NCBI GenBank assembly: GCA_949299505.1
Contig: CASGAS010000004.1
Span: 1-60,287 of the forward strand
Direction of reading: 5' to 3'
Length of the DNA: 60,287 nucleotides
Source of the DNA: an uncultured Eubacteriales bacterium
GTDB taxonomy: Bacteria > Bacillota > Clostridia > Oscillospirales > Acutalibacteraceae
Each line of letters starts with the position of its first letter. Within the stretch, counting starts at the first letter, position 1. Both the position numbers and the translations under genes were made by a program. The notes beneath the pieces are model-generated. The model saw nothing but the letters and a program-made list of their open reading frames with translations, did not search any database and had not been told where the DNA came from. Below, in pieces: positions 13,598-56,839 of the stretch.

Positions 13598-13673
13598 TCC
13601 TCCATAGCTCAGTCGGTAGAGCACGCGGCTGTTAACCGCGGTGTCGTTGGTTCGAGTCCAACTGGGGGAGCCA
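13598..13673 (+). tRNA. tRNA-Asn (GTT)
   Basis: A 76-base cloverleaf with encoded CCA. The acceptor stem is TCCTCCA paired with TGGGGGA, with a G discriminator base. The D arm AGCTCAGTCGGTAGAGC, anticodon loop CTGTTAA (anticodon GTT) and T arm GTTGG-TTCGAGT-CCAAC are all intact. It has its own promoter and a strong terminator directly after the CCA. Confidence 0.97.
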
Positions 13674-51863: not shown

Positions 51864-52405
51864 AAAAGCCCCTCCTTTACGAGCTGATAGGTCTTCAGAA
51901 TCCCGACTTGCGTTTTCGCGTCGGGAATTTGATTGTCCAGCACCATGCGGTACGCCGTCTCGAGCGGGATGCGCCGCAGCCGGAGAAATTCGTCCTCGTC
52001 GGGCTGCGGGGCGGAAAAGGCAAGGTCCGTGGCAAGATACAGGTGGATGATTTCCCCGCAGTAGCCGGGCGTGGGGTAAAGCGTCCCGAGCGAGCGGTAG
52101 CGCTGCGCGGCGGCGCCGGCCTCCTCGTGCAATTCCCGCTTGCCCGCCTCCAAGGGGTCCTCCCCGTACTCCAGCTTCCCGGCGGGCAGCTCTAAGACGA
52201 CCTGCCCGTACGGGTACCGGAACTGCTCGACGAACAGCAGCTCCCGCGCCTTAGTAAGCGCCGCGATGCACACGCCGCCCGGGTGCTCCACCACCTCGCG
52301 CAGGGCGGGCCTGCCGTTGGGCAGCTCAATGTCGTCCACGCGCAGGTTGAGGATGCGGCCTTTGTACTTGTACGTTTGCCGCAGCGTTTTTTCCGTTAAG
52401 TTCAT
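51860..52405 (-). CDS. Nudix hydrolase, ADP-ribose pyrophosphatase type
   Basis: 181 residues. The Nudix box G-x5-E-x7-REUxEExGU is complete, from GKLEYGEDPLEAG to RELHEEAGA. The flanking segments VRVDDIELPNG-like and EQFRYPYGQVVLELPAG match ADP-sugar (ADP-ribose) pyrophosphatases of the NudF type. AAAGGACGC precedes the ATG at 52405. It is the first gene of the nudix-maf-patatin operon. In the 73-base divergent gap I see a GTGTGGG/CCCACAC hairpin but no clear promoter. Confidence 0.92.
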   Translation of the reverse strand: MNLTEKTLRQTYKYKGRILNLRVDDIELPNGRPALREVVEHPGGVCIAALTKARELLFVEQFRYPYGQVVLELPAGKLEYGEDPLEAGKRELHEEAGAAAQRYRSLGTLYPTPGYCGEIIHLYLATDLAFSAPQPDEDEFLRLRRIPLETAYRMVLDNQIPDAKTQVGILKTYQLVKEGLL

Positions 52406-52478
52406 ACTATCCGCGTCCTTTCGCGCATATAGGTGCAGTGTGGGGCTTGCCCACACGTTTGAACTGGGAGGATGCCGT

Positions 52479-53351
52479 ATGTCGGTTTGGGAAGCGCCGT
52501 TTTCACATGCGCAAAGCAAAAGGCTTTGCGCGCATTTGCTTGCAAAGTATCCGTTCGCCGCCGTTTCGGTGCTGGGCAGCACGGTGGGCGGCCGGGCGAT
52601 TTTCGCGCTGCACGTCGGCGCCGTGACGGGCGCGCCGGTGCTGTATGTATCCGGTTTTTCGGGGCGCGACGCTGCGGGCAGCCTGGCCTTGTACCGGTTT
52701 TTCGACTGCGTCTGCCGTGCCGTTTCGCGCGACACGACGCTTTGCGGAGTCAAGCTGCGCCGGACGCTGCAAAGCAGGCGGCTCGTGGTTGTGCCGTGCT
52801 TAAACCCCGACGGCGTCGAAATCTGCCGCACGGGCGCCTTGGGCGCGGGGGTATACGCGGGGCTTGTCGGGCGCGCGGGCGCAGACGACCTGCGCGCCTG
52901 GCCCTGCAACGCGCGGGGCGTTGCGCTTGCGCACAATTTTGCATACCGCCACACGCCGCACCCGTTTTCCGCGCTCGAAACGGCCGGCGCGCGCGACGCG
53001 TGCTATGCCGGCCCGGCGCCGGAAAGCGAAACGGAAACCGCGGCGCTTGCGCGGCTTTGCCGCCACACGCCGTTCCGGCAGGCGGTGCTTTTGCGCGGCG
53101 GGGACGGCAGGCTCTTTTGGAACGCGCCGAAAGACCTTACCGACGCGCCCCTGATGGCGCGCGTGCTGGCGTCGGCCGGGGATTTTGCGCTGTCGCAAAA
53201 GGGGGAACCGCTGCTTCGCGGCAGCTTTCCCGCCTGGTTTGCCGAAACCCTGCGCGCCCCGGCGTTCGAGCTTGCCGTTTCCGACGCGCAGCCGCCGAAA
53301 ACGCTCTGGCAAACGGCGCAGGAGGCGCTGCTTTTGGCGGCGCTTCTGTAA
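52479..53351 (+). CDS. M14-carboxypeptidase-fold protein lacking zinc ligands (probable pseudoenzyme)
   Basis: 290 residues, no signal peptide. The overall order follows clostridial M14 peptidases: VLGSTVGGRAIFALHVG, LYVSGFSGRDAAGSLALYRF, VVVPCLNPDGVEI, NARGVALAHNF and PESETETAALARLC. The zinc H-x-x-E is replaced by S-G-R-D (61-64). The third ligand region reads VLLRGGD with no His, and the catalytic Glu region near the C-terminus reads FELAVS. It is therefore unlikely to be an active metallopeptidase. GGGAGG lies six bases before the ATG at 52479. It is convergent with the ubiquitin-like gene, with only seven bases between stops. Confidence 0.75.
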   Translation: MSVWEAPFSHAQSKRLCAHLLAKYPFAAVSVLGSTVGGRAIFALHVGAVTGAPVLYVSGFSGRDAAGSLALYRFFDCVCRAVSRDTTLCGVKLRRTLQSRRLVVVPCLNPDGVEICRTGALGAGVYAGLVGRAGADDLRAWPCNARGVALAHNFAYRHTPHPFSALETAGARDACYAGPAPESETETAALARLCRHTPFRQAVLLRGGDGRLFWNAPKDLTDAPLMARVLASAGDFALSQKGEPLLRGSFPAWFAETLRAPAFELAVSDAQPPKTLWQTAQEALLLAALL

Positions 53352-53358
53352 ATTTCGT

Positions 53359-54060
53359 TTATACGACGGCGGCCGTATAGGTCAGCGTCGTGCGGTACTG
53401 CCCGACCGGCGCGGCTTTCCGGGCGTCGGCGGCAATGGAAAAGGTCACGGGCGCGGCGTCCTGCACGCCGTCCGTTACCGCGGGAAAGGTCTGGCTGCTG
53501 TTTTGGAGCGCGGAAAACGCTATTCCGGGAAAGCCGCCGGCGGCCGCCTGTTCGTTTATAAGCAGGTGTTCGCCGTTTTCCGGCGCGACGGTGACAAGCA
53601 GGCTTTTGCCGATAAGCAGCCGCGTCTGGACCGCATAGCCCGCGTCAACGGGGTCGGTCGTGCCCCAGGGGATCGGGATTTCGGCGGGCACCGTTACGGT
53701 GTACGACGTGTCGTTTGTGGAAAAGAGCGTTTTTACCTCAGCGGTGTAGCTTGCCGGGCTCCCGTCGATTTCGATGAAGACGTTGTCCAACAAAACCAAA
53801 TGCAGCGTCGAATCCTTCTGGATGGAATAATCCTGCAGGGTATTTTCGTCCTCCAGCTGCTTGCCCGCAAAAATCAGCCGCTGCTTTTCGGTCGGAACGC
53901 CCTCCTTGTCCCGGATTTTTTCCTTGACCGACGCGACCGTGTCGGTCGACTCGACCTCGAGCACGATGTGCCTGCCGGTAAGCGTTTTGACAAAAATCTG
54001 CATGGCGAAGCACGGAACGGTGCAAACGCACACAAGCAGCGCGGCGAGCAGAGCGGACAA
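53359..54060 (-). CDS. exported ubiquitin-domain protein
   Basis: 233 residues from a TTG at 54060. Residues 1-19 are a signal peptide core ending PCFA; cleavage there would leave Met20, which aligns with Met1 of ubiquitin. Residues 20-90 match eukaryotic ubiquitin at 52 of 71 positions by hand alignment, including [22 protein letters not shown] and STLHLVL. The Leu8/Ile44/Val70 patch, His68 and Lys6, 27, 29, 33, 48 and 63 are kept; Lys11 is Arg. The LRLRGG tail is absent, so ordinary E1 conjugation is not expected. Residues 91-233 form a beta-rich domain ([25 protein letters not shown]) like those on clostridial surface proteins. It follows murD in the same frame. Start codon: see findings. 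Confidence 0.88.
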
Positions 54061-54075
54061 AAGTTTTTTATGGGC

Positions 54076-55371
54076 TTACGCCTCCCCGTATTTTCGGACG
54101 AGCGCTTTGTAGTGCCGCCCTTTTTCCTCGAAATTTTTATAGACGTTGTAGCTCGACGCCGCCGGGGACAGCAGACAGATTTTGCCCGGCGCGGTGCAGC
54201 GGTACGCAAGGCGCACCGCCTCGTCCAAGTCTGCGACGGCGACGGCGTTCTTTTCGGGGGCAAGCGCCCGGATGGCGGCGACGACCGTATGGCCGGTGTC
54301 GGGCAGGCCGAAGATGTTGCGAACGCCGCTTTCCGCGAGTGCCTCCTCAAAGCCCTTGTAGGAAATGCCGCGGTCCATGCCGCCGACCAGCAGCGTGTCG
54401 ACGTTCCCTAACGCCTCCACCGCGCACAGAACGGCGTGCGGAATGGTCGCGATGCAGTCGTTGTAAAACGTAATGCCCTTAAACGTGCCGACCTTTTCCA
54501 TGCGGTGCTCAATGCCCCGGTATTTGTGCACGGCGGCCTGTATCTGCGCGTCCGTCACGCCGAAGCGCGCCGCCGCGGCGCGCGCGAACAGCACGTCCTG
54601 GCGGTTGTGCGCGCCCAAAAGGTGTTCGTTTTGCAGCGGGAACGGCAGCGGGTCGTCTTTTCGGACCGCCTGCTTTTTCGCGGGCGTGTCCGAAAGCCCC
54701 GGGAAAAGCGCCAGCCCCTGGTCGCCGTTGTAGATAAGCAGGTCGTCCGGCCCCTGGTACAGGCCGATGTGCGCTTTCGCCTGCGCATAGCCCGCAAAGC
54801 CGCCGCGGTAGTGCTCCAGGTGCTCCTCAAACAGGTTCGTCAGCACCGCGACCTCGGGCGACGCGTGGGTGAATTCCAGCTGGTGCGACGACATTTCAAT
54901 GACCGCAACGCTGGTTTCGGAAACGGTTTCCAGCGCTTCAAAAACCGGCACGCCAATGTTGCCGATAAGCCGGCTGTCGAAGCCCGCCTCCTGCAGGCAC
55001 AGGTGGATGAGCGTCGAGGTCGTCGTCTTGCCCTTCGAGCCGGTCACGCCCACCTTGCGGCAGGGCGCGAAGCGCAAAAACAGGTCGACCTGGCAGGTGA
55101 TTTCGGCGTCCCCGGTGTTTTCCACGTCCTTAAAGGAAATGCCGGGGCTTTTGAGCACCACGTCGAACTGCGAAAGGGCGGAAAGATAGTCCGCGCCGGA
55201 AAAGACGGTCAGGTGCGGGTCGTCGACGGCTATCTCGTTTTTATCGGCGACGGCAAGCGTCTTTTCCGGAAAAAAGCGGCGCAGATAGCGGTAGGAGGAC
55301 TGCCCCTCGCGGCCGAAGCCGACGAGCAGGACGGTCTTATTTTGCAGATAGGCGGCAATCGGCGGCAACAA
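54076..55371 (-). CDS. murD: UDP-N-acetylmuramoyl-L-alanine:glutamate ligase (MurD family, possibly MurD2)
   Basis: 431 residues. Motifs: [16 protein letters not shown] near the start, Walker-like [35 protein letters not shown] and the C-terminal ligase domain with [13 protein letters not shown] and [19 protein letters not shown]. It adds glutamate to UDP-MurNAc-L-Ala. The start is a TTG at 55371 behind AAAGGAG, overlapping the end of murL by 35 bases. Because murL epimerises a terminal L-Glu, this enzyme may use L-Glu (MurD2 type) instead of D-Glu. Confidence 0.92.
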
Positions 55372-56734
55372 AGCGGTACATCTCCTTTACGGCGGGCAGG
55401 AAAGCCGCCGGAATGTTGTGTTCGTCGTTCCAGTCGAGCAGCGGCCGGTCGCCTGTGCGCACGGCTTTTTCGGTAAACCGCCGCAGCAGGCACGGCAGCG
55501 CACGCCCGGCTTTTTGGAACCGGTCGGCGGTCATCCATAGCGCCGCGCAAAGCTCCGACGGCGTGCCGACGCATTCAAAGGGCTTGACGGGCGAAAACCC
55601 GCACAGTCCGTCAAAATCGGCCGTAAGCGCCGGGTCGTCCAAAAGGTCGCCGCCGAAAATTGAGCACAGCCGGTCGTAGTCGAGAAACGGCGACAGGATG
55701 GAAAAGACAAACAGGCATTTCGAGCATTTGCCGCACCAGACGTTCTGCTTGCTGCCGCGGTTGCAGCTGCGGAAGGTGTCGTGGAACTGTTCGAGCGCGG
55801 CGAAGCGTTTGGCAATCTGCAATTCGTTAAAGGGCCGCAGCAGACTGAAATAATGTATGTCGGGCGTGAGGACGCGCGCGCAGTACGCGGCGAAATCCCG
55901 CTCGAACGCATAGGATTTGGAATACTGGTGGTTGACCTCGGTCCCCGCAATGTTGGCGTCGTTGGCGCTCGATTCGTTGGAGAGCACAATGTCCGTCGCG
56001 CCGACCAGGTACGCGCAGTACGCGGACAAAAACGCGACGATTGCCGAAAACGGCGTATGGCCGTTGAAAAAGCCTCTGGCGTTGAGCGCCAAAAGGCCGG
56101 GGTCAATGGTCCGGTAGGTGCGCACCACCGCGTCGGGCGTATAGCCCGCGGCAAGCACGGTGTCGGTGCGCGCCTTTTGGTCGTTGACGGTAAAAAACAG
56201 GTTCTTTTCCGGCGCGTCCGCAAGCAGCGCGGCCGTTACGCAGCTGTCCTTGCCGCCGCCGACGGGCACAAGCCGAAGCCCCGCGGTGCGAAACGCCGCC
56301 GCGTCGGGCGCGGCGCCGGGCGCCTTGGGGCAGGAAACCAGCTCCATGAAATCCTGTTCGTTCGTCTGGATGCCGTTGCGGTAGAAAAATTCCGACAGCC
56401 CGCGGAAATAAAGCTTTTTCCAGAACCGGACGTCCTCCTCTGTAAGCGCGCCCGCGCGCACCTCGACGCGGCGCGGGCAGGCGGCTTTCCAGTAGCTGAT
56501 AAGCTCGACAAGCCCGAGCGCAAAAACGAACCGCCGCGCAAGCGGGCCCTGCGGGTCGTTTAGGAGCGTCAGGTTTTCGGTTTCGATTTCGGTTGTCGGC
56601 GCAAAGCGGCAAAGCCCCTCTACGGAAAACGAAAAGGTCAGCCGCAGGCGCGTACCGGCGCGTTCAATAGAAAAATCGTCATAGGAAAACACGGGGTACT
56701 GCTTTTGCAGCGCCAGAAAACGGTCGGTGGACAT
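55337..56734 (-). CDS. murL: UDP-MurNAc-L-Ala-L-Glu epimerase family (MurL-like)
   Basis: 465 residues. A PP-loop-like VPVGGGKDS (GGGKDS at 159-164) and a late WCGKCSKCLFVFSILSPFLDY (Cys332, 335, 338) match the MurL family, which in Xanthomonas converts the L-Glu of UDP-MurNAc-L-Ala-L-Glu to D-Glu using ATP. SNESSANDANI and NHQYSKSYAFERDF are further conserved blocks. AAGGAGG precedes the ATG at 56734. It is first in the operon murL-murD-ubiquitin-like. The family assignment is from memory of the conserved blocks. Confidence 0.83.
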   Translation of the reverse strand: MSTDRFLALQKQYPVFSYDDFSIERAGTRLRLTFSFSVEGLCRFAPTTEIETENLTLLNDPQGPLARRFVFALGLVELISYWKAACPRRVEVRAGALTEEDVRFWKKLYFRGLSEFFYRNGIQTNEQDFMELVSCPKAPGAAPDAAAFRTAGLRLVPVGGGKDSCVTAALLADAPEKNLFFTVNDQKARTDTVLAAGYTPDAVVRTYRTIDPGLLALNARGFFNGHTPFSAIVAFLSAYCAYLVGATDIVLSNESSANDANIAGTEVNHQYSKSYAFERDFAAYCARVLTPDIHYFSLLRPFNELQIAKRFAALEQFHDTFRSCNRGSKQNVWCGKCSKCLFVFSILSPFLDYDRLCSIFGGDLLDDPALTADFDGLCGFSPVKPFECVGTPSELCAALWMTADRFQKAGRALPCLLRRFTEKAVRTGDRPLLDWNDEHNIPAAFLPAVKEMYRFVAADCRLSAK

Positions 56735-56755
56735 ACGCAGCCTCCTTATTTTCCT

Positions 56756-56784
56756 ATTATACGAAGAATCGCCCGGGATTGCAA
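56756..56784 (-). promoter_or_regulatory. promoter of murL-murD-ubiquitin-like operon
   Basis: On the minus strand, TTGCAA (56779-56784), 17-base spacer, TATAAT (56756-56761), about 22 bases upstream of the murL ATG. Confidence 0.82.
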
Positions 56785-56839
56785 GGCGGCGCGGCAAATT
56801 CCGCAGAAAAATTTCCTGCGAAATCCCGAAAAAAGCGTA

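Follow-up and report, generated by a model that had tools for sequence, protein, structure and literature searches.

Exported-type ubiquitin on a pilin-like domain in an uncultured Clostridia genome, and its relatives across bacteria

Introduction

A stretch of 60,287 nucleotides from an uncultured Eubacteriales bacterium of the Acutalibacteraceae (GenBank assembly GCA_949299505.1, contig CASGAS010000004.1; hereafter the window) holds a gene whose predicted product carries a near-eukaryotic ubiquitin domain behind an export-type leader. The locus raises the question of where such a domain came from and what a bacterium would do with it. The original prediction for this DNA, made from its letters alone, took as its leading inference transfer from a eukaryote and use as a mimic or decoy. 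Here we propose a different reading, to which we give about an even chance: that a horizontally spread ubiquitin fold has been reused as a non-conjugating binding head on a pilin-like subunit, cleaved at Met1 and attached to the cell surface or to a fibre.

Results

The gene encodes a ubiquitin domain that lacks the conjugation tail

Human ubiquitin, for which the solved structure served as reference, aligns with residues 20-90 of the protein without a gap and with 52 of 71 residues identical, and the Pfam profile scan places the domain in the ubiquitin family (PF00240, E 3.6e-28, 97.6 bits against a cut-off of 25.4). None of 14 control genomes gave a match to this profile. The ubiquitin likeness of the open reading frame at 53359-54060 is not chance. 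The window copy retains L8, I44, H68 and V70, together with F4 and L71, with I36 replaced by Val, and keeps six of the seven lysines (K6, K27, K29, K33, K48 and K63; K11 is Arg). Both the near-eukaryotic likeness and the preserved Leu8-Ile44-Val70 patch, His68 and lysines had been predicted and are confirmed. The modelled domain, with a mean predicted local distance difference test score (pLDDT) of 75-94 across blocks from residue 21 to 90, adopts the ubiquitin fold suggested earlier and superposes on solved ubiquitins at 0.5-1.0 Å in most of the 50 matches listed. Kinship with the ordinary beta-grasp proteins ThiS and MoaD, named beforehand as the alternative, was rejected, as Pfam at E ≤ 0.001 returns only ubiquitin-type families and there is no terminal GG.

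After residue 71 the sequence departs from ubiquitin, positions 72-76 reading LDNVF in place of RLRGG. The alignment therefore leaves the domain without a C-terminal GlyGly, so that the usual conjugation is not possible and the protein does not qualify as a conjugatable modifier. The E2 profile PF00179 found no match in the bacterium's own genome, a search that was uninformative since the control also lacked any match.

Table 1. Layout of the ubiquitin gene and its two neighbours in the window
Feature	Position	Strand	Basis and remarks
Whole gene: leader, ubiquitin domain and pilin-like domain, 233 aa	53359..54060	(-)	Open reading frame list; TTG is the sole in-frame leader start
Export-type leader, 19 aa counted from TTG; end abuts ubiquitin Met1	54004..54060	(-)	By eye
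Ubiquitin domain, residues 1-71 in ubiquitin numbering; RLRGG tail missing	53791..54003	(-)	Pfam, alignment, model
C-terminal domain, 142 aa, predicted beta-sandwich	53362..53787	(-)	Model, pLDDT 87.5; fold match tentative
murD, upstream neighbour	54076..55371	(-)	Flanks the ubiquitin gene in 5 genus members
M14 peptidase-like gene, convergent neighbour	52140..53351	(+)	Other flank in the same 5 members; start uncertain

The domain stands on a pilin-like tail with paralogues in the same genome

The C-terminal half of the protein, which the original prediction had passed over together with the start-codon problem described below, was unusable in the first structure model and was modelled alone, from 36 rows. 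The nearest solved folds to the resulting beta-sandwich are subunits of the archaic Csu pilus (the pilin domains of CsuE and CsuA/B), a middling and tentative match. An NCBIfam pilin match to the tail (E 0.017, below cut-off) was weak and was not used. Paralogues of the tail, small proteins with leaders, lie in tandem on contig C50 of the same genome. The array includes two frames without a profile match. The usher profile PF00577 found no match in this genome, and the E. coli control does match it. Tentatively, the protein is predicted to be built as two-domain tip adhesins are, with ubiquitin as the head and a surface subunit as the tail.

Small beta-sandwich proteins with leaders stand in tandem arrays at four loci (L171, which is the C50 array, L172, L204 and L206; loci and genomes carry L and G numbers), next to a very large protein and to one that has a membrane stretch at its C terminus. 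These arrays possibly represent an undescribed surface fibre system in Clostridia.

The leader abuts Met1, and its start is disturbed

The leader consists of a hydrophobic stretch followed by C-F-A immediately ahead of Met1. Judged by eye and from the relatives L003, L004 and L005, it is likely a cleaved signal peptide, and the earlier view of an exported-type protein with Met1 as its likely new N-terminus is supported.

The TTG at 54060, a few bases past the murD stop, is the only in-frame start for the leader, with no ATG opening it and, by eye, no good ribosome site just upstream, which makes expression of the window copy uncertain. The same leader opens with ATG-Lys-Lys in L003, L004 and L005, and the window leader lacks this basic start. 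In L002 (genome G038) the leader ATG is present and out of frame. The start region is thus disturbed next to a short A-tract in two of the five genus copies (window 54050-54076; L002), possibly by assembly error, decay or on/off slippage. A promoter scan found nothing.

The gene is old in its lineage and missing from most members

The host genome (1.8 Mb, 90 contigs) is one of five among 39 of its genus with a PF00240 match above cut-off. The corresponding counts were 15 of 300 in a family sample (16 with any match, some being divergent ubiquitin-like proteins) and 5 of 341 in a class sample (7 with any match). A search for murD matched in all 39 genus genomes, and 30 of the loci were examined to about 1.5 kb past murD. 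In five of these the ubiquitin gene sits between murD and the convergent M14 peptidase gene. In G002, whose murD is 97% identical, it is reduced to the start and the last 40 codons, and the remaining 24 show neither ubiquitin nor tail within about 1.5 kb beyond murD. When the window copy is compared with three relatives, the ratio of nonsynonymous to synonymous substitution rates (dN/dS) lies at 0.12-0.13 in the ubiquitin part and at 0.16-0.28 in the tail, by a counting method and with saturated dS (1.2-2.3), which makes the values rough. Against G001, the most distant copy, the ratios are 0.18 and 0.51. The G+C content at third codon positions (GC3) is 0.78 for the gene and 0.82 for murD. Synteny, dN/dS, GC3 and patchy presence together indicate a gene that has long been in the lineage, keeps a constant position and is absent from the majority of members.

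Contamination or misassembly, which the original prediction had put forward as what would overturn it, was rejected. Eukaryotic DNA could in principle have entered the bin of a 90-contig assembly. The gene lies mid-contig between murD and M14, however, and in the same place in four other genomes; its GC3 is near that of murD, its leader and tail are of bacterial type, and relatives occur in the named isolates Ruminococcus albus 8, Cohnella sp. OV330 and Dyella sp. OK004. We regard such an artefact as vanishingly improbable, refuted in practice by the synteny.

A gene in decay, no longer made here, its start lost in the window genome and its body deleted in a sister species, is rather unlikely. 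The missing ATG, the leader without its basic start and the remnant in G002 would fit it. Against it, the 233-codon frame is open throughout, dN/dS to three relatives is low, though this reflects older divergence, and the same picture would arise from a minor error of assembly or from on/off slippage.

Elsewhere in the window, repeats were unremarkable and an Rfam scan found only a tRNA at 13598. A MurL-like gene lies upstream of murD (54076-56797 for the pair; NCBIfam NF041275, E 8e-83, below its cut-off), which suggests an L-glutamate/epimerase route to cell-wall precursors.

Exported-type ubiquitins form a large group

The scan covered 84,980 species, each represented by one genome, and took 12 aligned ubiquitin domains as query; it gave 515 pattern matches, 466 of them encoding a relative. 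The secreted ubiquitin of Bacteroides fragilis (BfUbb), earlier taken as the known parallel, is therefore not the only one. Detailed counts cover the best 80 of the 466, those nearest to the query, so that rates by phylum mean little. A hydrophobic stretch precedes ubiquitin in 73 of the 80 loci, with A, G, S, C or T (64 Ala) as the residue before Met1 and a small or aliphatic residue at -3 in all 73. The rule is simple and loose (in L062 the stretch is far upstream of Met1), and it failed for L030, L054, L071, L072, L075, L079 and L085. By record title, the 73 loci fall into ten named phyla, nine bacterial and one archaeal, with two unplaced. Many carriers are metagenome-assembled genomes (MAGs), in which short contigs may be misbinned. 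The leaders of L040 ("cyanobacterium", 3,300 bases), L044 ("Bacteroidota", 3,341 bases) and L065 ("Methylophilaceae") resemble one another, as do the tails of L040 and L065. Rhodoferax lacus and Thiohalocapsa marina join the three isolates named above in carrying the leader-ubiquitin plan.

C-terminal parts were scanned for 69 of the 80 loci and the window, omitting four near-duplicates and seven short ones and cutting long ones at 500 aa. Among these 70 we found the autotransporter barrel in 18, GLUG in 7, Flg_new_2 in 5, IPTL-CTERM in 4, and SLH, SpaA and SdrD_B in 2 each. The shared plan is a leader, ubiquitin with a free Met1 and then often a surface or sorting module. RGG at 74-76 is kept in 7 of the 80, and L051 (Dyella) alone ends with it. 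Among the papers listed by full-text searches of the open-access literature, with subscription papers mostly outside, we found no report of a wide exported-ubiquitin family beyond B. fragilis, and these proteins apparently form a large, little-described group.

No partner gene recurs widely. Once ubiquitin and antisense frames are set aside, which make up most of the two largest neighbour clusters (17 and 6 loci), each neighbour family is confined to at most 5 of the 84 stretches. Seven cluster members were scanned: five belong to common families (ABC transporter, TPR-methyltransferase, DUF3048, GGDEF-EAL), and L040 and L065, both from one cluster, have no Pfam match. These data bear on the idea of an inter-bacterial weapon, in which the exported ubiquitin would enter or bind competing bacteria and disable a target protein. 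BfUbb is reported to be exported, to be cleaved to leave Met1 N-terminal and to lack the final glycine (PMC3352274; PMC5705921), and the synthetic 76-aa protein inhibits other B. fragilis strains (PMC5705921). The window protein shares the type of leader, the predicted Met1 junction and the missing GlyGly, and patchy presence within the genus also fits a weapon. The 142-aa tail, the many relatives fused to surface modules and the lack of a shared neighbour beyond common families or frames without a Pfam match count against it, and we consider it a serious rival, though an unlikely one.

Several relatives stand apart. A frame of about 330 aa recurs near ubiquitin (L040:200-1189, L044:426-1436, L065:2774-3772, L093:5186-6190), in three of the four loci divergent from it and about 230 bases off, and without a Pfam match in the two scanned. 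A genome of the host's family (G131) encodes three tandem proteins of about 110 aa (L018, L024, L026) in which a leader ending in ELELVIGG precedes a ubiquitin-like domain, two of them ending near LRLMG/LRLRG. We take this leader ending to be of the bacteriocin-like double-glycine type, and perhaps this ubiquitin is exported by a peptidase-containing ABC transporter. L051 (Dyella sp. OK004) and L108 (an IMG/VR contig), each from 4001, encode a leader and a complete ubiquitin with an exact LRLRGG end, exported-type bacterial ubiquitins that retain the conjugation tail. L053, a 17-kb Methanothrix MAG contig, encodes a long-tailed leader-ubiquitin protein, which is archaeal provided that the bin is free of foreign DNA. 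Two tandem leader-ubiquitin proteins (L153/L159) occur in one Clostridia-class genome (G343). IMG/VR contigs filed as viral (L111-L113, L115-L117) carry bacterial-style leader-ubiquitin genes, three with an IPTL-like tail by eye; phage or prophage carriage and misfiling are both possible.

The nearest relatives of the window domain are bacterial

The best bacterial identity to the window domain is 57 of 71 residues, in an alphaproteobacterial MAG, compared with 52 of 71 for human ubiquitin. The set H12, N54, Q57, S60 and D64 is complete in the window and 17 of the 80 loci and absent from human and yeast ubiquitin. In a tree of 93 domains the window's group comprises 26 rows, of which 19 come from the 80 loci and seven are genus or family copies, with support 87/94 on 71 columns, the bootstrap not settled and the branch not starred. 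The group includes Clostridia, Bacilli, alphaproteobacterial MAGs and Parabacteroides sp. An277; two of its 19 locus titles name a site, both times the caecum (L045, L052). With 51 of 90 inner forks open, the tree can neither root nor date a transfer, and it does not keep the genus copies together despite their shared genomic place.

As the nearest relatives are other exported bacterial ubiquitins, arrival via bacteria is likelier than arrival straight from a host or protist, and the immediate source of the window copy was likely transfer between bacteria. The ultimate origin of the domain would, from its likeness, be eukaryotic. The predicted transfer from a eukaryote thus stands as to ultimate origin and not as to a direct route, and the tree groups the domain with bacterial copies.

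The I44 patch is not preferentially conserved

A eukaryote-directed mimic or decoy, which would bind ubiquitin receptors, E2/E3 enzymes or extracellular-ubiquitin receptors of a host or protists, predicts that the I44 patch should be the best-kept surface. With buried and patch positions assigned as we presume them to be, mean conservation in the window's group is 0.71 for the patch, 0.71 for the other surface and 0.95 for the core (permutation p 0.52), which counts against mimicry. In the other 64 bacterial rows, too, the patch (0.93) is hardly better kept than the other surface (0.90, p 0.42). Within the group I44, V70 and R42 are kept in 69%, 38% and 31% (conservation 0.69, 0.38 and 0.31). 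Three of the five genus members change the patch, G025 and G038 at L8 and V70 and G001 at all four patch residues, and the idea that the domain presents a native ubiquitin surface is weakened accordingly. Further, Prochlorococcus and Rhodoferax lacus, neither of them known as an animal symbiont, are among the carriers, and the GlyGly is missing. For mimicry speak the L8/I44/H68/V70 residues and six lysines of the window copy, a gut or rumen site in 8 of the 80 record titles, and the reported, contested effects of extracellular ubiquitin through CXCR4 (PMC10892293). The mimic or decoy is thus not borne out as the leading explanation; we judge it still possible and decidedly unlikely.

Other positions in the group are largely fixed: Thr at 20 in 96%, Arg at 22 in 73% and Asp at 25 in 85%, of which the window has Thr20 and neither Arg22 nor Asp25. 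These three are independent of the choice of 12, 54, 57, 60 and 64, which had been chosen by eye and gave the group its name. All presumably belong to the face that surrounds residue 58, distant from I44.

Discussion

The proposed reuse of ubiquitin as a surface binding head builds on the computed domain order, the leader junction as judged by rule, the paralogous array, the grouping with bacterial copies and the missing GlyGly. A ubiquitin domain that spread horizontally among bacteria would have been placed at the N terminus of a pilin-like surface subunit. Export and cleavage would free Met1 as the N terminus, and the pilin-like domain would hold the protein on the cell surface or on a fibre formed there by the array proteins. 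Without GlyGly, the head would act by noncovalent binding, as the head of a tip adhesin does, and its partner would be extracellular, in all likelihood a protein made by neighbouring microbes or by eukaryotes that share the habitat.

We also put forward, tentatively and at clearly less than an even chance, that ubiquitin may be a common prokaryotic cell-surface recognition domain, its fold coming from eukaryotes, reaching about ten phyla largely through inter-prokaryote transfer, cut at Met1 and mounted on each host's own surface module. In the window's group the interface would have shifted from the I44 patch to another face, where the new letters (12, 20, 22, 25, 54, 57, 60, 64) are largely fixed.

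Export of ubiquitin by hundreds of bacteria, in many cases on surface modules, would, if borne out, make near-self ubiquitin abundant in microbial communities. This would matter for autoantibody work, for the ubiquitin proteomics of gut samples and for competition among bacteria. What extracellular ubiquitin binds would then be testable in culturable species such as Ruminococcus albus. BfUbb provides a reported precedent that an exported ubiquitin can be antibacterial (PMC5705921).

Comparison with known systems

The window protein shares with eukaryotic ubiquitin the fold, the 52 identical residues, the patch and the six lysines, and differs in being of exported type, fused and without the RLRGG tail. 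It resembles BfUbb, compared by published description, as a predicted exported eukaryotic-like ubiquitin, probably with Met1 at the N terminus, with C-terminal glycine missing and patchy presence. BfUbb, however, is a free protein of 76 aa, 63% identical to human ubiquitin (48/76) (PMC3352274; PMC5705921), whereas the window protein does not end as free mature ubiquitin and continues into its pilin-like tail. In the secreted ubiquitin of the nematode Globodera rostochiensis, too, an export signal has been added and the C terminus extended; it is described as an effector with a 12-aa extension (PMC5705921). That extension is unrelated to the tail described here. The chaperone-usher tip adhesins CsuE, FimH and PapG have the same order of N-terminal head and C-terminal pilin-like domain, and the tail model resembles the Csu pilin domains; in the window protein, the fold match is middling, the genome has no PF00577 usher match, and the head is ubiquitin.
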